Below, in pieces: positions 12,129-21,693 of a stretch of DNA of 25,910 bases. Within the stretch, counting starts at the first letter, position 1, and the number at the start of each line of letters is the position of its first letter. The DNA is from a virus. Location: the IMG/VR virus record IMGVR_UViG_3300025806_000196, positions 1 through 25,910 of that record; one strand, written 5' to 3'. A program made the position numbers and the translations under genes. Under the pieces are notes generated by a model, which saw only the letters and a program-made list of their open reading frames with translations, had not been told where the DNA came from and ran no database searches.

Positions 12129-12503
12129 ATGTGTGACCATGAGTATCCATTCTTCTCACATGATGAACTTAAATGTAAAGGTTCTGGTGAGTGTAAGATG
12201 AACAATAGATTCATGACTAAGCTTGTCAGCCTACGAAGGATATATGACAAACCAATGATAATAACATCAGCCTATAGGTCTGAAGAGTATAATGAAAAAA
12301 TTAAAGGGTCTAAAGGCTCTGCTCATGTTAAAGGTCAGGCTGTAGATATTAGTATAAACCGAAAAGAAGCTTTTAAACTACTTAAGTTGGCCCTTGAGTT
12401 GGGCTTTACAGGGATTGGTGTGTCTCAAAAAGGTCAGGATAGATTTCTACATTTGGATACCCTTGATGATCCTTCTTTAAGACCAACCATTTGGTCCTAT
12501 TAG
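12129..12503 (+). CDS. M15-family peptidoglycan peptidase (endolysin or virion-associated)
   Basis: The 124-residue product is a single zinc-peptidase domain of the M15A type, the usual length for a stand-alone phage endopeptidase. The fold markers appear in order: FFSHDELKCKGSGEC (residues 8-22), SAYR (47-50), then SAHVKGQAVD (64-73) giving zinc ligands His66 and Asp73, and FLHLD (106-110) giving His108. The family cleaves peptide cross-links of peptidoglycan. There is no signal peptide, so release would need a holin, or the protein could be carried in the virion. It lies in the rightward virion unit, unlike the holin, which is on the other strand. Four bases overlap nothing downstream: the next ATG follows the stop directly. 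Confidence 0.88.
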   Translation: MCDHEYPFFSHDELKCKGSGECKMNNRFMTKLVSLRRIYDKPMIITSAYRSEEYNEKIKGSKGSAHVKGQAVDISINRKEAFKLLKLALELGFTGIGVSQKGQDRFLHLDTLDDPSLRPTIWSY

Positions 12504-13167: not shown

Positions 13168-13659
13168 TCATCCAAATTCATAATCTTCAATCTCTTCTTC
13201 AATATCTTCATCATTATCTTCTACAACATCTTCTTCAATGTCCTCTTCATTTGATACTTCTGGGAAGGCTATCACTATCAACTCCATAATCTTATCAAGC
13301 CCCAGTACCTGAATACACCTAACTATCTCTAACTCTAATACTACAGGGTCTTTAGTCTCTGCTTCTGCCTTGTTCCCCCTAGCTTTACCTAACAATTCTA
13401 AGGCCTTCAGAGACACATTACCATGTCCTGCCAGCCTTGATGTTTCGTATTGTCTTTCAAGCTCAGCTACAACATCAATGTCTGTAGTAATAATACCTTG
13501 GAAGTCTTTAATCCTTTCCTGAACATCATCACGTTTAAGTAACCTATGTCCCTGATTAGCGGCATGGGCATCCTTATACCCTGCAGCCTTAGCAGCTGAT
13601 GTAGCGTTGTTTGATGTAGCATAATTCTGGCAGAACAATTCCATCTGTTGAGTCAACAT
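13168..13659 (-). CDS. Terminase small subunit
   Basis: The 163-residue product begins LTQQMELFCQNYATSNNATS followed by AAKAAGYKDAHAANQGHRLL. This is the Terminase_2 (Nu1/G1P-like) helix-turn-helix N-terminus that recognises packaging sites. Residues about 50-110 are helical and would form the oligomerisation region. The last 30 residues are almost all D and E (EEDIEEDVVEDNDEDIEEEI), an acidic tail longer than usual. The protein should bind viral DNA and pass it to the large subunit, which is not encoded in this window. The gene is the final one of the leftward unit and starts 3 bases after the holin stop. Confidence 0.82.
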   Translation of the reverse strand: MLTQQMELFCQNYATSNNATSAAKAAGYKDAHAANQGHRLLKRDDVQERIKDFQGIITTDIDVVAELERQYETSRLAGHGNVSLKALELLGKARGNKAEAETKDPVVLELEIVRCIQVLGLDKIMELIVIAFPEVSNEEDIEEDVVEDNDEDIEEEIEDYEFG

Positions 13660-13662
13660 AGA

Positions 13663-14076
13663 TTACTTATCTCCTTTATATACTTGAACGCCCTTCTCTA
13701 CAGACCTGCCAACCACATACCCACCAAGGCCAATCTTTAATAGGCCCCACATGTCAGGGGGGATGTCCAGCATAGCTCCTGAGTTGAAGAATAGCTGTAG
13801 GTATGGGTAGATAATGTAGTTGTTGGCAATGATTACCACAAATGTCAGCATAGTTATAGGTCGCCAGTTCTTGGCTAGGTAACTATCAGACTTAATCTCA
13901 GCTCTAATGATTGAAGAAGATGCTTTAACTTCAGTGCTTAAGATATCCATAGTCTGTTGTTGTAAATCATTCTTTAACTTGATAGCCATATCCTTATCTA
14001 CCACTGCCTTATCAATGGTTCCAAATATGCCCTTAAGTAGGGGTGTGGCTAAAGCCGTGACTAATCCTAACATCAC
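13663..14076 (-). CDS. Holin, GTA-type 3TM family
   Basis: The 137-residue product has an amphipathic N-terminus (LGLVTALATPLLKGIFGTI), a charged coil (residues 22-68), the block NWRPITMLTFVVIIANNYII (about 70-89) with a following hydrophobic stretch, and LKIGLGGYVVGRSVEKGV (113-130). The W-R-P-I and GGYVVGRSVEK signatures identify the holin family first described for alphaproteobacterial gene-transfer agents. Its job is to open the inner membrane at lysis. Two adjacent start codons are available, GTG at 14076 and ATG at 14073. GGAGG lies 7 bases from the GTG and 10 from the ATG. The ATG overlaps the stop of a 17-codon leader (TGATG), so translation is probably coupled to that peptide. Confidence 0.85.
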   Translation of the reverse strand: MMLGLVTALATPLLKGIFGTIDKAVVDKDMAIKLKNDLQQQTMDILSTEVKASSSIIRAEIKSDSYLAKNWRPITMLTFVVIIANNYIIYPYLQLFFNSGAMLDIPPDMWGLLKIGLGGYVVGRSVEKGVQVYKGDK

Positions 14077-14127: not shown

Positions 14128-16449
14128 TTAAAGTACCTCCTGATACCGAAGCTCATTAGCTTTCTTTGAGTTGTTAAATACTGAGGCTCCCAAGGTATTC
14201 TTACCATGGAAGGTAACTGATGCATCTATATCATCACGTTCCCATAGACGCTCCATGTCTTGAGCCATAGCCAGTAGCTCACCTGTAGTGTAGAACTCTT
14301 CATCATGTGCGTCAACTTTTAAATACTTAGAACGTCCTGTATCCTCTTCTATCTTGGATAACTCCTCTTCAGTTGGAGACTCTTCCATTGAACAATCAAA
14401 TCCAAACATATGGAAGTGTCTAAAGCCCAGTACATGGAACATTCCAAAAGATCGCATTGCTGCACAGGTTCCACCAGTCACTAGGACTACACCTTCTGGG
14501 ATATCTATTGACTCCTTAAGCGTAACATTGTCGGTGTTCTGCATATCCCTTACTGCATCTGAGTAGGCGTGCCATCCTTTGATGGTTGCACCCTGATCTA
14601 ATAGGTATTGAGTGACACTTGGGTCAGTCATTGAAGCTACTAAGAATACTGTATCATCCTTGACTTCCTTAAATAGTTCTGATCTAACTATACCATGGGT
14701 AGATGTACCAGTGATTGGTCTTGGATCAAGAATTACACAATAGTCTGGATAGATACCATTAGCTAAACATGTTGGATAGCTATGTTTAACTGAAACAACT
14801 AAACTATTAGGGTTCATCTTAATAGTAGCTTTGACAATGTCCCAATCTACTGAGGGGCCACCAGATATTAGGATGGCTGTATCATTATGGATACCACACT
14901 TCTTAACCCAATTAGAGTCCTTAATTAATTTAGAGTTAGCATTAATATTATCAATAATAAAGTCTTGAGGTACACAGTCTTTTGGAGTTACAACAATAGG
15001 AACCCTACGTAGGTCTTTAGGAAGATCAGCCATGTCCTTATGGATTGTAATAGCTAAGTGTGTAAGGCCTCCCCCTAATACTTTGTCGTTACTGGGTAAT
15101 ACTATAGTACGCCAGTCATCAGCTATGTGATTGTTGATCACTTGATTAGTCCCTTGATGTTCCTCTGGGGCTATCAATCCTTCCTTGTCCTCAGTAAAAT
15201 AATCATCGAAGACAATAATAGATACATCCTTTAGATTATTATAGTCCGATAGACATGTATCAAATGAATGACCACCATCAATGTACACCATGTCTATGTC
15301 CTTAGTATCAAAACCTTTAAGGGTTTCGTTAGTATCTCCTTTAGTTAAGAAGAACTGGAAGTCCTTATCACGTTCCTTCATTTTAGATTGGAACTCTAGT
15401 AGTCGATTGTTGACAGCCTTCAATGAATTGTGTGCCTTACTATTCATCTCAACATCATCAGACTCATTTGTTGCTTCTTCAAATAGATCGTATCCGTGGT
15501 AGACAAATAGGTCTGAGTGTTCAAAGCCTGCCAAGGCCATCTCAATAGCTCTACCACCATTCCATGTGCCTACTTCAACTACTTGTGAAGCTTTGTAGTG
15601 TTGGATTATATCAGCCAACTGACGGTACCTTTTAGGGCCTGTAACATCCGGTGATGTCTTATCATCATAGAGCTTAGGTGTACCTTTTTTAGCTTTTACT
15701 TCCTTACCTTTTAGGTTGCCTTTAAAGTGTGTCATATACTGTGATAGGGGGGACTGTAGAAAGGCTGTAAGACCCTTACACTTAGGAGTTAAGTTTTGAA
15801 CCTTCATACCGTGGGCAGTATAAATATTTAGTAGGCGCTCAATGATGAACCCGTCATGCCACTCACGATATGTAATGACCTCACCAATATCATAGCAACC
15901 ACGTAGGTCACCCAACATTTCTAATGGAGGGGTAGTAGATAAGTTGAAGGCCATGAACGATGTCTCTGAGTAATCCGTATCTGTTCTTCCCAGATGTACA
16001 AACTCAGCATTCTTATTAATAATCTTTTTGATATCTTTCATAGTGAAACGTTTGTCGGTAATGGTGTCAGCATCTAACCAACAAAGCCAACCAGCATCTA
16101 CAGAATGATCAGCCATTTCAAAGGCTAGGTCAGTCATAGCGTAGACCTTATGGCACCACTTGATCGCATCCATACGCCAGTTATATTCTGTCTGGCCTCC
16201 CATAGTCCCATCAAACCTAGCCATGGTATCTCGGTAGGCTAACATGTCCCCACATTCGTTTAGGTTTCGTAGGACTATGTTACTTGGCATGGGTGTTCCC
16301 CAAACTTTAGGTAGATCAAAGTCATGGTAGTAAACGGTAAGTAAAATAGTTGGTTGCCAGTTACTGATCACACTGTCAAGCATTTTACGCCCATACTTAT
16401 TAAAGCCTGACTCGTTCATGCTAGTCACAAATTGTACATTATTATTCAT
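14128..16449 (-). CDS. Three-domain glycan-modification protein: GT-A, SAM methyltransferase, DUF115
   Basis: The 773-residue product reads as three enzymes in one chain. Residues 1-250 look like a GT-A glycosyltransferase, with a DxD-type motif at WLCWLDADT (D126, D128) and a closing THFKG (H241) like the metal-binding histidine of GT8 enzymes. Residues about 270-415 form a class I methyltransferase, with VVEVGTWNGG (290-299) as the SAM loop and MVYIDGGHSFD (387-397). Residues about 515-690 match the DUF115/MptE-like domain seen in Maf flagellin glycosylation factors: AILISGGPSVDWD, GIYPDYCVILDPRP, and VTGGTCAAM with MFGFDC. No transmembrane segment is seen. It overlaps the upstream glycosyltransferase by 8 bases, so both probably act on one glycan. 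Substrate and target (virion protein, host flagellum or LPS) are unknown. Confidence 0.78.
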   Translation of the reverse strand: MNNNVQFVTSMNESGFNKYGRKMLDSVISNWQPTILLTVYYHDFDLPKVWGTPMPSNIVLRNLNECGDMLAYRDTMARFDGTMGGQTEYNWRMDAIKWCHKVYAMTDLAFEMADHSVDAGWLCWLDADTITDKRFTMKDIKKIINKNAEFVHLGRTDTDYSETSFMAFNLSTTPPLEMLGDLRGCYDIGEVITYREWHDGFIIERLLNIYTAHGMKVQNLTPKCKGLTAFLQSPLSQYMTHFKGNLKGKEVKAKKGTPKLYDDKTSPDVTGPKRYRQLADIIQHYKASQVVEVGTWNGGRAIEMALAGFEHSDLFVYHGYDLFEEATNESDDVEMNSKAHNSLKAVNNRLLEFQSKMKERDKDFQFFLTKGDTNETLKGFDTKDIDMVYIDGGHSFDTCLSDYNNLKDVSIIVFDDYFTEDKEGLIAPEEHQGTNQVINNHIADDWRTIVLPSNDKVLGGGLTHLAITIHKDMADLPKDLRRVPIVVTPKDCVPQDFIIDNINANSKLIKDSNWVKKCGIHNDTAILISGGPSVDWDIVKATIKMNPNSLVVSVKHSYPTCLANGIYPDYCVILDPRPITGTSTHGIVRSELFKEVKDDTVFLVASMTDPSVTQYLLDQGATIKGWHAYSDAVRDMQNTDNVTLKESIDIPEGVVLVTGGTCAAMRSFGMFHVLGFRHFHMFGFDCSMEESPTEEELSKIEEDTGRSKYLKVDAHDEEFYTTGELLAMAQDMERLWERDDIDASVTFHGKNTLGASVFNNSKKANELRYQEVL

Positions 16450-17197
16450 TGTTAAACTTCTCCAGTTCTATTAGCCATTCAGCGGCATATCGTTTATCTG
16501 CATCTCTTGAGCCTATCCATGTATCAAAGTATGGCCCTCCTGTAGTGAAGTGTACATTCTTAGCCTCTATAGATTCAGAGCTATGATTGTCCAACCAGTT
16601 CCATGATTCATCCATATCTCCTAAGGTATCCATGTTATCCAACATCCATTGGAATTGATGTAGCCATCTACCGGACTTAGTATTCACATCAGAAACTGTC
16701 AGGTTTCTATGTATAGGATGACTACAATTCCACAACATAACTGAAGACCAGTTCTTCATATTGTACTGACCCTGTTGTTGGTTGTCCATCTTAATAGATT
16801 GTGTAGGCTTATAGTTATGCTCGACAGTATATAGAGCTACTTCAGGATCGTTATAGGTATCAAACAGTTCCATCACATCTGACCGGAAGAACATATCACA
16901 GTCGATAAATAATGCCCATCCAGAGAATAAGTTTAAGTGTGGTACTAAAAATCTAGTGAATGAGAAGTCTGTCGAGAATGGCTTCTTATCATTCGTATCA
17001 ATCTTCTGTATAGAATTACCAATAATAGAAGTAGTGTAGTCTCTACTATATAAACCAATAGTTCTTAAGGCTTCCTGTTTAATAGGTATAATATTTACAG
17101 CCTTAGAAGAGTGCCTACGTATAGACTCTTCTAATATTCTATAGGGTGTATCCTCACGTTGGTCATACCCTACATAAATCGTTACTGGGTTACTCAT
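16442..17197 (-). CDS. GT8-like glycosyltransferase
   Basis: The 251-residue product opens TIYVGYDQREDTPYRILEES, the usual first strand and helix of GT8/GT-A glycosyltransferases in phages. It has the metal and nucleotide-sugar motif FIDCDMFF (D99-C-D101) and a C-terminal VHFTTGGPYFD block with His216 as the likely third metal ligand. It should transfer a hexose from a UDP- or similar sugar donor; the acceptor is unknown. A strong ribosome site, GGGAGG, lies 7 bases before the ATG. Its end overlaps the 773-aa glycan protein by 8 bases, so the two are coupled. It is the first gene after the terminator at 17221-17257 and therefore opens a separate transcription segment. Confidence 0.8.
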   Translation of the reverse strand: MSNPVTIYVGYDQREDTPYRILEESIRRHSSKAVNIIPIKQEALRTIGLYSRDYTTSIIGNSIQKIDTNDKKPFSTDFSFTRFLVPHLNLFSGWALFIDCDMFFRSDVMELFDTYNDPEVALYTVEHNYKPTQSIKMDNQQQGQYNMKNWSSVMLWNCSHPIHRNLTVSDVNTKSGRWLHQFQWMLDNMDTLGDMDESWNWLDNHSSESIEAKNVHFTTGGPYFDTWIGSRDADKRYAAEWLIELEKFNNE

Positions 17198-17220: not shown

Positions 17221-17257
17221 ATAAAAATAGGGGACTAAGTAGGATACCTAGTCCCCC
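17221..17257 (-). terminator. Rho-independent terminator before the glycan-holin-terminase segment
   Basis: On the leftward strand the arms GGGGACTA (17256-17249) and TAGTCCCC (17237-17230) form an 8-bp stem with an 11-base loop. The T-rich tract TATTTTTAT follows directly (17229-17221). Stem, GC content and U tract fit an intrinsic terminator. It sits after the stop of the 99-aa gene (17294) and before the glycosyltransferase ATG (17197), in the longest gap of this part of the leftward unit. Confidence 0.75.
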
Positions 17258-17261
17258 AAGT

Positions 17262-17848: not shown

Positions 17849-18286
17849 TTATTCCTCTATATAAAATAAATGTCTACCTATCCTGCCAAGATAGAATAAC
17901 TTATTAGACCATTGCGGTTTCACATAGTCTGCATGATAATGTGTTGCCCCTTCTGTCTCACCTACTAAGGCACCATCCATAGCTAGTCTAGCGACTTGAT
18001 ATGAAGTCTTCTTAGCTTCTAGGTCCAGCATAACCTCATTCTTCCCATCACACCAGTAGCTGAACTGGCATCTATCATGTACCGTTGCACATACAGACTT
18101 AGTAGTCCTAGTTAAGGCTACGTTGGCTATGGCTAGTTGTCCAATGAAAGGCTCTGATCTCCCTTCATAGTATACAGCTTCTGCTAGACAGTCAAGATCA
18201 GTCTGTACTGTTCCAGCCCAAGCCCCTAGTGTTGCTAAGGATATGAAAGCCCATACAAGTATTATTAAAGCAAAGACTCTCTTCAT
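17849..18286 (-). CDS. SleB-type cell-wall hydrolase with signal peptide
   Basis: The 145-residue product starts with a signal peptide or signal-anchor (residues 1-25, MKRVFALIILVWAFISLATL then GAWAG). The Hydrolase_2/SleB domain follows: LAEAVYYEGRSEP (34-46) with the likely catalytic glutamate, GQLAIANVALTR (49-60), CQFSYWCDG (73-81, two of several cysteines) and GATHYHADYVKPQW (113-126). The family cuts the glycan strand of peptidoglycan, usually as a lytic transglycosylase-like enzyme. The export signal means it could reach the periplasm without the holin. It overlaps the upstream lipoprotein gene by 4 bases (ATGA). Its position next to RNR, not next to the holin, is unusual. Confidence 0.85.
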   Translation of the reverse strand: MKRVFALIILVWAFISLATLGAWAGTVQTDLDCLAEAVYYEGRSEPFIGQLAIANVALTRTTKSVCATVHDRCQFSYWCDGKNEVMLDLEAKKTSYQVARLAMDGALVGETEGATHYHADYVKPQWSNKLFYLGRIGRHLFYIEE

Positions 18287-20929: not shown

Positions 20930-21268
20930 TTACATTGATAGTATTGTGTTGATCCTCTTGCGGATGAATGGAACTTCTCCCGACTCCAATACCTTATAAG
21001 CAAAGGTCTTAGTGTATGAGGGGTCAACTCCAGCACATTCACAGACGGTATTAAAGTCTTCACAGGTTACCCCCACTGATGCTGAAAACCATGCCCTAGC
21101 TCTGTCCCTGTCTAGGATAATCTCTTCATTGTCACTCTCCAAGGGTGGCTTGGTAGCATCTAATAGGGCCTGTAGTATTACTGCTAAGAACAATAGTTGT
21201 GAATTATCTTTAGCATTTCTTATATGAAAGGTATTATCTAAGACTACTGCTATGTTTGTGATGCTCAT
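20930..21268 (-). CDS. Hypothetical helical phage protein
   Basis: The 112-residue product is mostly helical. Its conserved-looking core is LDRDRARAWFSASVGVT followed by EDFNTVCECAGVDPSY (about residues 52-85). This D-R-D-x-A-R-A-W plus V-C-x-x-A-G-x-D-P pattern resembles small phage proteins I have seen without a named function. The cysteines do not form a clear metal site. It overlaps the GIY-YIG gene by 4 bases (ATGA), within the recombination and nucleotide segment. A helix-turn-helix DNA-binding role would fit the pattern, but I cannot show it. Confidence 0.6.
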   Translation of the reverse strand: MSITNIAVVLDNTFHIRNAKDNSQLLFLAVILQALLDATKPPLESDNEEIILDRDRARAWFSASVGVTCEDFNTVCECAGVDPSYTKTFAYKVLESGEVPFIRKRINTILSM

Positions 21269-21693
21269 TTCTTTTTCCTAGATACTGGTATGTTATCATC
21301 AACCTTTTTAGGTACATATCTTGTAGCCCCTATTTGTTTGTTGTAGAACAACCTAGTGTCTTCATTAAGCCATGTAGTCAAAGCATCTTCTTTATGTAGA
21401 TAGTTACTCTCCAAGTATGAGAGCCAACCCCTAGTGACACATTCAGCTATGATGCAGAACCTGAACTTGTCTTTACCCAGCTTCTTGATGTCACTATTTA
21501 AGTCTTTACTGGAACCTGTATAGGATTGCCAGTCACTGGGTTTCAGCTTCTTAGACTTCTTATAGAACCAATACTGTTTCTTACCTATGTATTGTCTTCC
21601 ATCAGCGGTATTAATTACCCTATAGATAAACCCGAATGACTCTTCAGAGTTTAACTTAATGTCTGATTCCCAGTGACCAAATTTATACTTCAT
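21265..21693 (-). CDS. GIY-YIG nuclease (SegE-like)
   Basis: The 142-residue product has the GIY-YIG core GFIYRVINTADGRQYIGKKQ (residues 21-40). DWQSYTGSSKDLNSDIKKLG follows (54-73) with KFRFCIIAEC (76-85), and YLESNYL (93-99), where E95 is the likely metal-binding glutamate. This combination is close to the SegE-type putative homing endonucleases of T4-like phages. The C-terminal tail is basic. It would nick or cut double-stranded DNA. Free-standing homing endonucleases usually sit between conserved genes, as here between an unknown gene and a PD-(D/E)XK nuclease. A host-DNA-degrading role like T4 DenA is the alternative. Confidence 0.75.
   Translation of the reverse strand: MKYKFGHWESDIKLNSEESFGFIYRVINTADGRQYIGKKQYWFYKKSKKLKPSDWQSYTGSSKDLNSDIKKLGKDKFRFCIIAECVTRGWLSYLESNYLHKEDALTTWLNEDTRLFYNKQIGATRYVPKKVDDNIPVSRKKK

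Follow-up and report, generated by a model that had tools for sequence, protein, structure and literature searches.

A glycosyltransferase–methyltransferase–DUF115 fusion protein and its partner glycosyltransferase form a conserved, predicted glycan-assembly cassette in marine phages

Our analysis of a 25,910-base virus record (IMG/VR record IMGVR_UViG_3300025806_000196, positions 1 to 25,910; hereafter the window) reveals a minus-strand cassette of two overlapping genes. The first encodes a 251-residue GT8/GT24-like GT-A glycosyltransferase (GT), P0002 (16442..17197), and the second encodes a 773-residue protein, P0001 (14128..16449), that fuses a GT-A domain, an O-methyltransferase (MT) domain, and a DUF115/Maf-like domain. 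Computation showed what the domains are and how they fold, how far they are conserved, that the two genes are coupled, that selection on them is purifying, that the methyltransferase can be dispensed with, and that the searched contigs lack sugar-nucleotide genes. We propose, with moderate confidence, that P0002 and P0001 form a soluble glycan-assembly unit that would use host sugar nucleotides, including a cytidine monophosphate (CMP)-activated ulosonate handled by the DUF115 domain, and that would have a virion protein as its acceptor.

The two open reading frames (ORFs), their coordinates and strand, and their 8-base overlap (16442..16449, minus strand, ATGAATAA) are as a sequence-only reading of the window had described them, and the motifs D126-A-D128, H241, E292VGTWNGG299, ISGGPSVD, and MFGFDC of P0001 lie at the places that it gave. 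The division into three domains that it proposed holds for PF01973 (E 1e-14), for Methyltransf_24 (E 4e-9), and, at the level of the GT-A fold, for residues 1-255; in separate profile searches the methyltransferase and DUF115 domains exceed their cut-offs, and residues 1-255 have no Pfam match. AlphaFold2 models and fold searches give GT-A, COMT-type, and Maf-like domains. The model of whole P0001, built from a 47-sequence alignment, has a mean predicted local distance difference test (pLDDT) score of 88.5 and a predicted template modeling (pTM) score of 0.50, the latter making the relative placement of the domains uncertain. Among PDB structures, Maf 5mu5 matches this model best (Foldseek E 4e-9); GT-A glycosyltransferases and COMT-type O-methyltransferases come next. 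The folds and the conserved residues together suggest that three activities are joined in one protein.

The fusion belongs to a large family. One scan of IMG/VR returned 56 loci with about 50 full-length relatives of P0001 at 45–100% identity. Domain-wise scans of IMG/VR, for which the best 600 candidates each were taken for the methyltransferase and DUF115 domains, gave, among the matches listed, 266 loci with at least 230 full-length GT-MT-DUF115 ORFs, at least 146 of them distinct, in at least 46 clusters at 80% identity. The counts that follow refer to 153 non-redundant loci or distinct proteins drawn from the matches listed, or to 146 for methyltransferase residues. Comparison of the window with its nearest fetched non-identical relative (L002) gives ratios of nonsynonymous to synonymous substitution (dN/dS) of 0.08 for the GT domain, 0.15 for the methyltransferase, 0.12 for DUF115, and 0.09 for the small glycosyltransferase; all domains of P0001, and P0002, are under purifying selection.

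Domain 1 of P0001 (residues 1-255; 15685..16449, minus strand) folds as a GT-A domain, predicted to be of the retaining type. Having no Pfam match, it has no significant GT8 profile match, and its likeness to GT8 is at the level of the fold only. Foldseek matches include LARGE1, COLGALT1, GT6 (alpha-1,3-galactosyltransferase), GT8, and glycogenin; fold searches return best matches only, and domain 1 may belong to another glycosyltransferase family. Aspartates 126 and 128 of the DxD motif are conserved in 152/153 proteins, H241 and G244 in all 153, K247 in 145, and D199 in 152–153. We take H241-x-x-G-x-x-K247 to be the GT8 C-terminal signature. P0002 matches phrog_28018 strongly (2e-41) and matches the Pfam family Glyco_transf_8 (PF01501) with an E-value of 0.002 and 18.2 bits, under the 24.3-bit cut-off. 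Both aspartates of its DxD motif (D99-C-D101) are unchanged across 14 homologues.

Domain 2 (residues 262-474; 15028..15666, minus strand) is a class I cation-dependent O-methyltransferase of the COMT/TylF/MycF-like kind. In Pfam searches, residues 291-417 match Methyltransf_24 (PF13578), exceeding the curated cut-off, and residues 267-421 match TylF (PF05711, E 9e-7); fold searches with the AlphaFold2 model give COMT (Z 16), MycF (Z 15.6), and SpnH (Z 15.3). The S-adenosylmethionine (SAM) motif E292-x-G-T-W-N is unchanged across methyltransferase-bearing relatives. Residues D391, D415, and D416, which on the basis of motif we take to be the metal ligands of COMT and TylF, are all present in the window protein and are less conserved than the SAM motif. 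Specifically, D391 is kept in 138/146 relatives, D415 in 128, and D416 in 120, with replacements in 8, 18, and 26, respectively. The 18 distinct homologues with a change at position 415 have Asn in place of Asp (e.g. L014, L035, L037, L248, and L256), the sequence FDDYF becoming FNNYF in several, and retain the SAM motif; it is possible that methyl transfer has been lost by point mutation in these proteins. The P0001 domain also matches phrog_2675, which carries the name 'DNA methyltransferase', a label that is probably wrong for it.

The methyltransferase is dispensable. Seven distinct homologues (549–564 residues) have no methyltransferase and retain the GT and DUF115 domains. In a tree of the GT and DUF115 domains these proteins occupy two places inside the methyltransferase-bearing family (support of the relevant parent nodes modest, 0.70–0.74), indicating that the methyltransferase was probably lost at least twice. 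Methylation looks like an optional decoration.

Domain 3 (residues 476-773; 14131..15024, minus strand) is a PF01973 (DUF115/Maf/MptE-like) domain with a sialyltransferase-type fold. In particular, residues 501-689 match PF01973 in Pfam with 55.1 bits against a cut-off of 34.6, and P0001 matches the NCBIfam PseD (Maf) model with an E-value of 1.2e-6 over 107 residues, far under that model's full-length cut-off. Modelled alone, the domain has a pLDDT score of 91.7 and a pTM score of 0.90, and its best PDB match is again Maf 5mu5 (Z 18.8, root-mean-square deviation (RMSD) 3.2 over 229 residues). Further fold matches are Methanocaldococcus jannaschii HPPK (Z 14.3 over 193 residues), SteA (Z 11.8), and GT29 and GT42 sialyltransferases (Z 7–9). 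A DUF115 profile searched against PDB sequences gives 5mu5 as its only match (E 0.016, in register), and comparison with two bacterial Maf-type proteins gives HHalign probabilities of 93–95%. Residues K555-H556, D575-P-R577, T584-H585, T608, G659-G660-T661, R666, E724, and Q730-D731 are conserved in 152–153 of the 153 proteins. Joint alignment of P0001 to residues 28-500 of 5mu5 gives an RMSD of 14.4, with an intact methyltransferase in place of the degenerate Rossmann domain; P0001 ends with the PF01973 fold, the 5mu5 alignment stops at residue 502, and the Maf C-terminal helical domain is absent. The C-terminal domain of P0001 is a PF01973 domain that resembles Maf more than MptE, and the protein itself is not a Maf.

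The coupling to a GT8-like gene noted in the sequence-only reading recurs across the family. The small glycosyltransferase lies directly upstream of the fusion at 150/153 loci and overlaps it, by automated start calls, at 106 of those 150; in the window, the overlap of the P0002 and P0001 frames suggests translational coupling. Five loci have gaps of 488–529 bases between the two genes, and in one of them a 171-residue HNH-like ORF, seen by eye as HNH-type sequence, is set exactly between the genes (L012:2302-2817) and is probably a homing endonuclease. The terminase small subunit (TerS) gene follows the fusion within five genes at 126/153 loci, ribonucleotide reductase precedes it at 107/153, and at least two of the neighbour clusters contain holins. 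At 56/153 loci (e.g. L010:4095-4667) a 2OG-Fe(II) oxygenase is encoded upstream of the fusion, at a distance of two to six genes, and none was recognised in the window; by analogy with collagen, this enzyme could be an amino-acid hydroxylase that prepares a glycosylation site. Some lineages carry a second, separate methyltransferase gene (phrog_24759) directly 3′ of the fusion (L277:10294-10959; L120:5893-6552).

The same parts also occur in other arrangements. In the bin of a Myxococcales genome, the phage contig L278 has the GT8-like protein, the glycosyltransferase, and an MT-DUF115 protein as three separate genes, placed between the terminase large subunit (TerL) gene and the portal gene. 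Alphaproteobacterial genomes also have GT-MT without DUF115 (L279) and, beside chromosomal housekeeping genes, MT-GT in reversed order (L281). Stenotrophomonas phage DLP6 has methyltransferase, GT8-like, and GT29-type sialyltransferase-like genes in a row, and Synechococcus phage S-SCSM2R has genes annotated KdsB and KdsA, for supply of CMP-activated 3-deoxy-D-manno-octulosonic acid (CMP-Kdo), three and four genes beyond its GT8-like gene. The recurrence of methyltransferases, a sialyltransferase, or CMP-Kdo genes near the small glycosyltransferase agrees with our reading of the fusion.

The left half of the window is a plus-strand structural block and the right half a minus-strand block, the two meeting head-on near 13 kb. 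The minus-strand block runs from DNA polymerase A, single-stranded DNA-binding protein, Cas4-type exonuclease, and ribonucleotide reductase to the cassette, with a cell-wall hydrolase and DUF3310 in between, and then to a holin (GTA_holin_3TM; 13663..14076, minus strand; PF11351 2e-14, phrog_3427 9e-30), the next gene downstream of the fusion, and the terminase small subunit (13168..13659, minus strand; PF03592 1.5e-12, phrog_51 7e-16), the two neighbours named in the sequence-only reading. The nearest relatives of the polymerase are those of pelagiphages HTVC103P/104P (42%) and the nearest relatives of a virion protein are those of DSL-LC04 and HTVC023P (30–34%), indicating that the source is a marine podovirus-like phage; a search for near-identical DNA found no close relative of the window in the phage collection. 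A strong intrinsic terminator, with a 14-bp stem followed by T5 (−23.1 kcal/mol, z −4.1), lies just upstream of the cassette (17228..17258, minus strand) and suggests that, in the lineage of the window, the cassette, holin, and TerS form a transcription unit of their own. Such a terminator was found in 8/144 relatives, against 2 in shuffled sequence, so that it marks the lineage of the window and a few others and is not general; the late expression proposed in the sequence-only reading would, as separate transcription, hold at the level of the lineage. Two different lysis enzymes are encoded on opposite strands, an M15-type endolysin (12129-12503, plus strand) and a Hydrolase_2 cell-wall hydrolase (17849-18286, minus strand) that is SleB-like and has an apparent signal sequence. 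A small ORF (21265-21693, minus strand) is labelled NAD synthetase by PHROGs and GIY-YIG endonuclease SegE by Pfam (4.9e-29); the PHROG label looks wrong.

P0001 has no evident signal peptide or transmembrane stretch (maximum 19-residue Kyte-Doolittle score 1.24). No genes for CMP-sugar synthetase, NeuB, or nucleoside diphosphate (NDP)-sugar epimerase were found in 22 fusion-carrying contigs in which the controls were detected; these contigs are fragments, so the missing genes are no proof of absence. With no sugar-nucleotide genes in the contigs, the donors would be host-made, and with neither signal peptide nor transmembrane segment, the enzymes would act on them in the cytoplasm. CMP-Kdo is found in almost all Gram-negative hosts.

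We infer the enzymatic activities, the donor, the order of steps, and the target of a cassette that would probably be made late in infection. P0002 and the GT-A domain of P0001 would each transfer one sugar from a host NDP-sugar; the methyltransferase would O-methylate a sugar hydroxyl with SAM and a divalent metal; and the DUF115 domain would take an ulosonic acid, either Kdo or a nonulosonate of the host, from a host donor activated with CMP and place it either as a Ser/Thr-linked first residue, as in Maf, or as an outer cap. The fusion would keep sequential steps on one polypeptide. The most likely acceptor would be a protein of the virion, which would receive the glycan in the cytoplasm while particles are being assembled, since the enzymes would be soluble, Maf-type chemistry is protein O-glycosylation, the neighbours are packaging genes, and the cassette of L278 is placed between TerL and portal. 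The fusion cassette described in the sequence-only reading is confirmed as an observation, and the interpretation given there is partly supported.

Several points weigh against this proposal. The activities, the glycan, and the acceptor are all predicted; P0002 falls under the GT8 cut-off; a pterin pyrophosphokinase (Z 14.3) is also among the fold matches of DUF115, and likeness in fold is no proof that the donor is the same; the 22 contigs yielded no phage gene that would supply CMP-sugars, though this is consistent with use of host CMP-Kdo; and proximity to TerS and the holin could mean late timing only, which would equally suit modification of the host surface at lysis. The same enzymes could act late on the host, on its lipopolysaccharide (LPS) or a different surface glycan, and mask the receptor; progeny would then escape adsorption to debris and other infected cells. 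Phage glycosyltransferases have often been read in this way, for example as modifying lipopolysaccharide in pelagiphages (PMC9599517). Donors of the Kdo type also belong to LPS core synthesis, and the neighbouring holin fits expression at the time of lysis. We nevertheless consider this explanation rather unlikely, as the cassette encodes neither a membrane protein nor a flippase and has no transmembrane segment, in contrast to phage gtr seroconversion systems. The TerL–portal setting in L278 points the same way, and Maf-type domains are known to modify proteins in the cytoplasm (PMC11339370).

An improbable alternative is that the DUF115 domain serves as a scaffold that binds nucleotides, or as a pyrophosphokinase like MptE, leaving the glycan to be made by the two GT-A domains and the methyltransferase only. 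The Pfam family is now named MptE-like, and the archaeal HPPK is the second-best fold match, ahead of the sialyltransferases. However, Maf is clearly the better match by fold and by sequence profile, the only NCBIfam model returned is the Maf-type PseD model, and the DUF115 domain is fused to a glycosyltransferase and is retained even where the methyltransferase has been lost. That the cassette glycosylates and methylates the bases of phage DNA is very improbable: the label of PHROG 2675 would favour it, but the methyltransferase fold is that of COMT/TylF small-molecule O-methyltransferases, not of DNA methylases, the amino-methylase motif (D/N-P-P-Y/F) is absent from P0001, and the scan of window ORFs recognised no gene for base hypermodification. 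We know of no link between DUF115 or GT8-like domains and DNA. That separate genes were wrongly joined in assembly or sequencing, a possibility which the sequence-only reading had itself raised, has only the unusual length of the ORF in its favour; it is contradicted by at least 146 distinct homologues of the same architecture from many metagenomes and by a full-length relative in BFVD, and we reject it as having a negligible probability. A role as a defence system was rejected, there being no PADLOC match, and a link between DUF115 and BREX was rejected because the paper in question concerns DUF1156.

Descriptions of glycosylation on phage virions are rare, and most of the donors and enzymes involved are not known. 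As a module of marine phages that is compact, widespread, and strongly conserved, the cassette offers testable candidate active sites and a natural series of methyltransferase-less proteins; a cultured Pelagibacter phage provides relatives encoded by split genes. The marine phage family probably builds a decorated sugar chain, most likely on its own particles. If the DUF115 domain is an ulosonate transferase, Maf chemistry would extend from flagella to viruses, a clue to the puzzling Maf N-terminal domain would be gained, and phage proteins now labelled 'MptE-like' or 'methyltransferase' would receive a better name.

The closest structural comparison is with the Maf flagellin glycosyltransferases (5mu5). 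These share with P0001 the PF01973 core and its fold, the motif order GxGPS; LLxNGIxP; GFxxFxLFGxD, and a Rossmann domain in front. P0001 differs in having an intact methyltransferase as this Rossmann domain, with a GT-A domain added before it, in lacking the C-terminal helical domain, and in being encoded by a phage genome. In Maf itself the N-terminal Rossmann fold is degenerate and its methyltransferase motifs are weak, and CbMaf takes CMP-Kdo (PMC11339370). The MT-DUF115 tandem, present also as a GT-less protein in L278, may represent the working ancestor of the catalytic domain of flagellin Maf together with its N-terminal domain, which is methyltransferase-like but degenerate. Archaeal MptE, a 6-hydroxymethylpterin diphosphokinase (8sd5), shares the Pfam family and core fold of the DUF115 domain, and differs in being a small stand-alone enzyme of pterin synthesis with no GT or methyltransferase fusion and in matching less well than Maf. 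No pterin genes were recognised among the window ORFs scanned. The TylF, MycF, and SpnH sugar O-methyltransferases share with domain 2 the fold, the acidic metal site, and the SAM motif ExGTWxG, and methylate sugar hydroxyls; unlike domain 2, they are separate enzymes that act on antibiotic sugars.

Among viruses, Pelagibacter phage Mosig EXVC030M has in genes 00188-00190 an adjacent FkbM-type methyltransferase, a glycosyltransferase homologous to domain 1, and a GT8-like gene; unlike the cassette, these are separate genes, the methyltransferase is of another family, and no DUF115 domain was recognised. The BFVD entry A0A6J7X5Q0, from an uncultured Caudovirales phage, is a full-length relative of P0001 (714 residues, 31% identity, Foldseek E 2.7e-60); its only name is 'methyltransferase domain containing protein', and it carries no function or description. 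A search of the open-access literature found no description of the GT-MT-DUF115 architecture, in agreement with the statement of the sequence-only reading that no named phage system has it; a three-domain GT-GT-MT enzyme is, however, known from a giant virus. This protein, the 638-residue A064R of chlorovirus PBCV-1, has been demonstrated biochemically to finish the virus's own capsid glycan (PMC9614988). Like P0001, A064R is a single viral protein of three domains, in which a SAM O-methyltransferase accompanies two transferases, one of them a GT-A domain with DxD; unlike P0001, its other transferase belongs to a new rhamnosyltransferase family, not to DUF115, its order is GT-GT-MT, and its virus infects a eukaryotic alga. 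A064R is the best functional parallel of P0001, in architecture only, by analogy and not homology. We tentatively suggest that P0001 may be its phage counterpart, one three-site polypeptide that would build, methylate, and cap or anchor a virion protein-linked glycan by Maf-type CMP-ulosonate chemistry with host CMP-Kdo.

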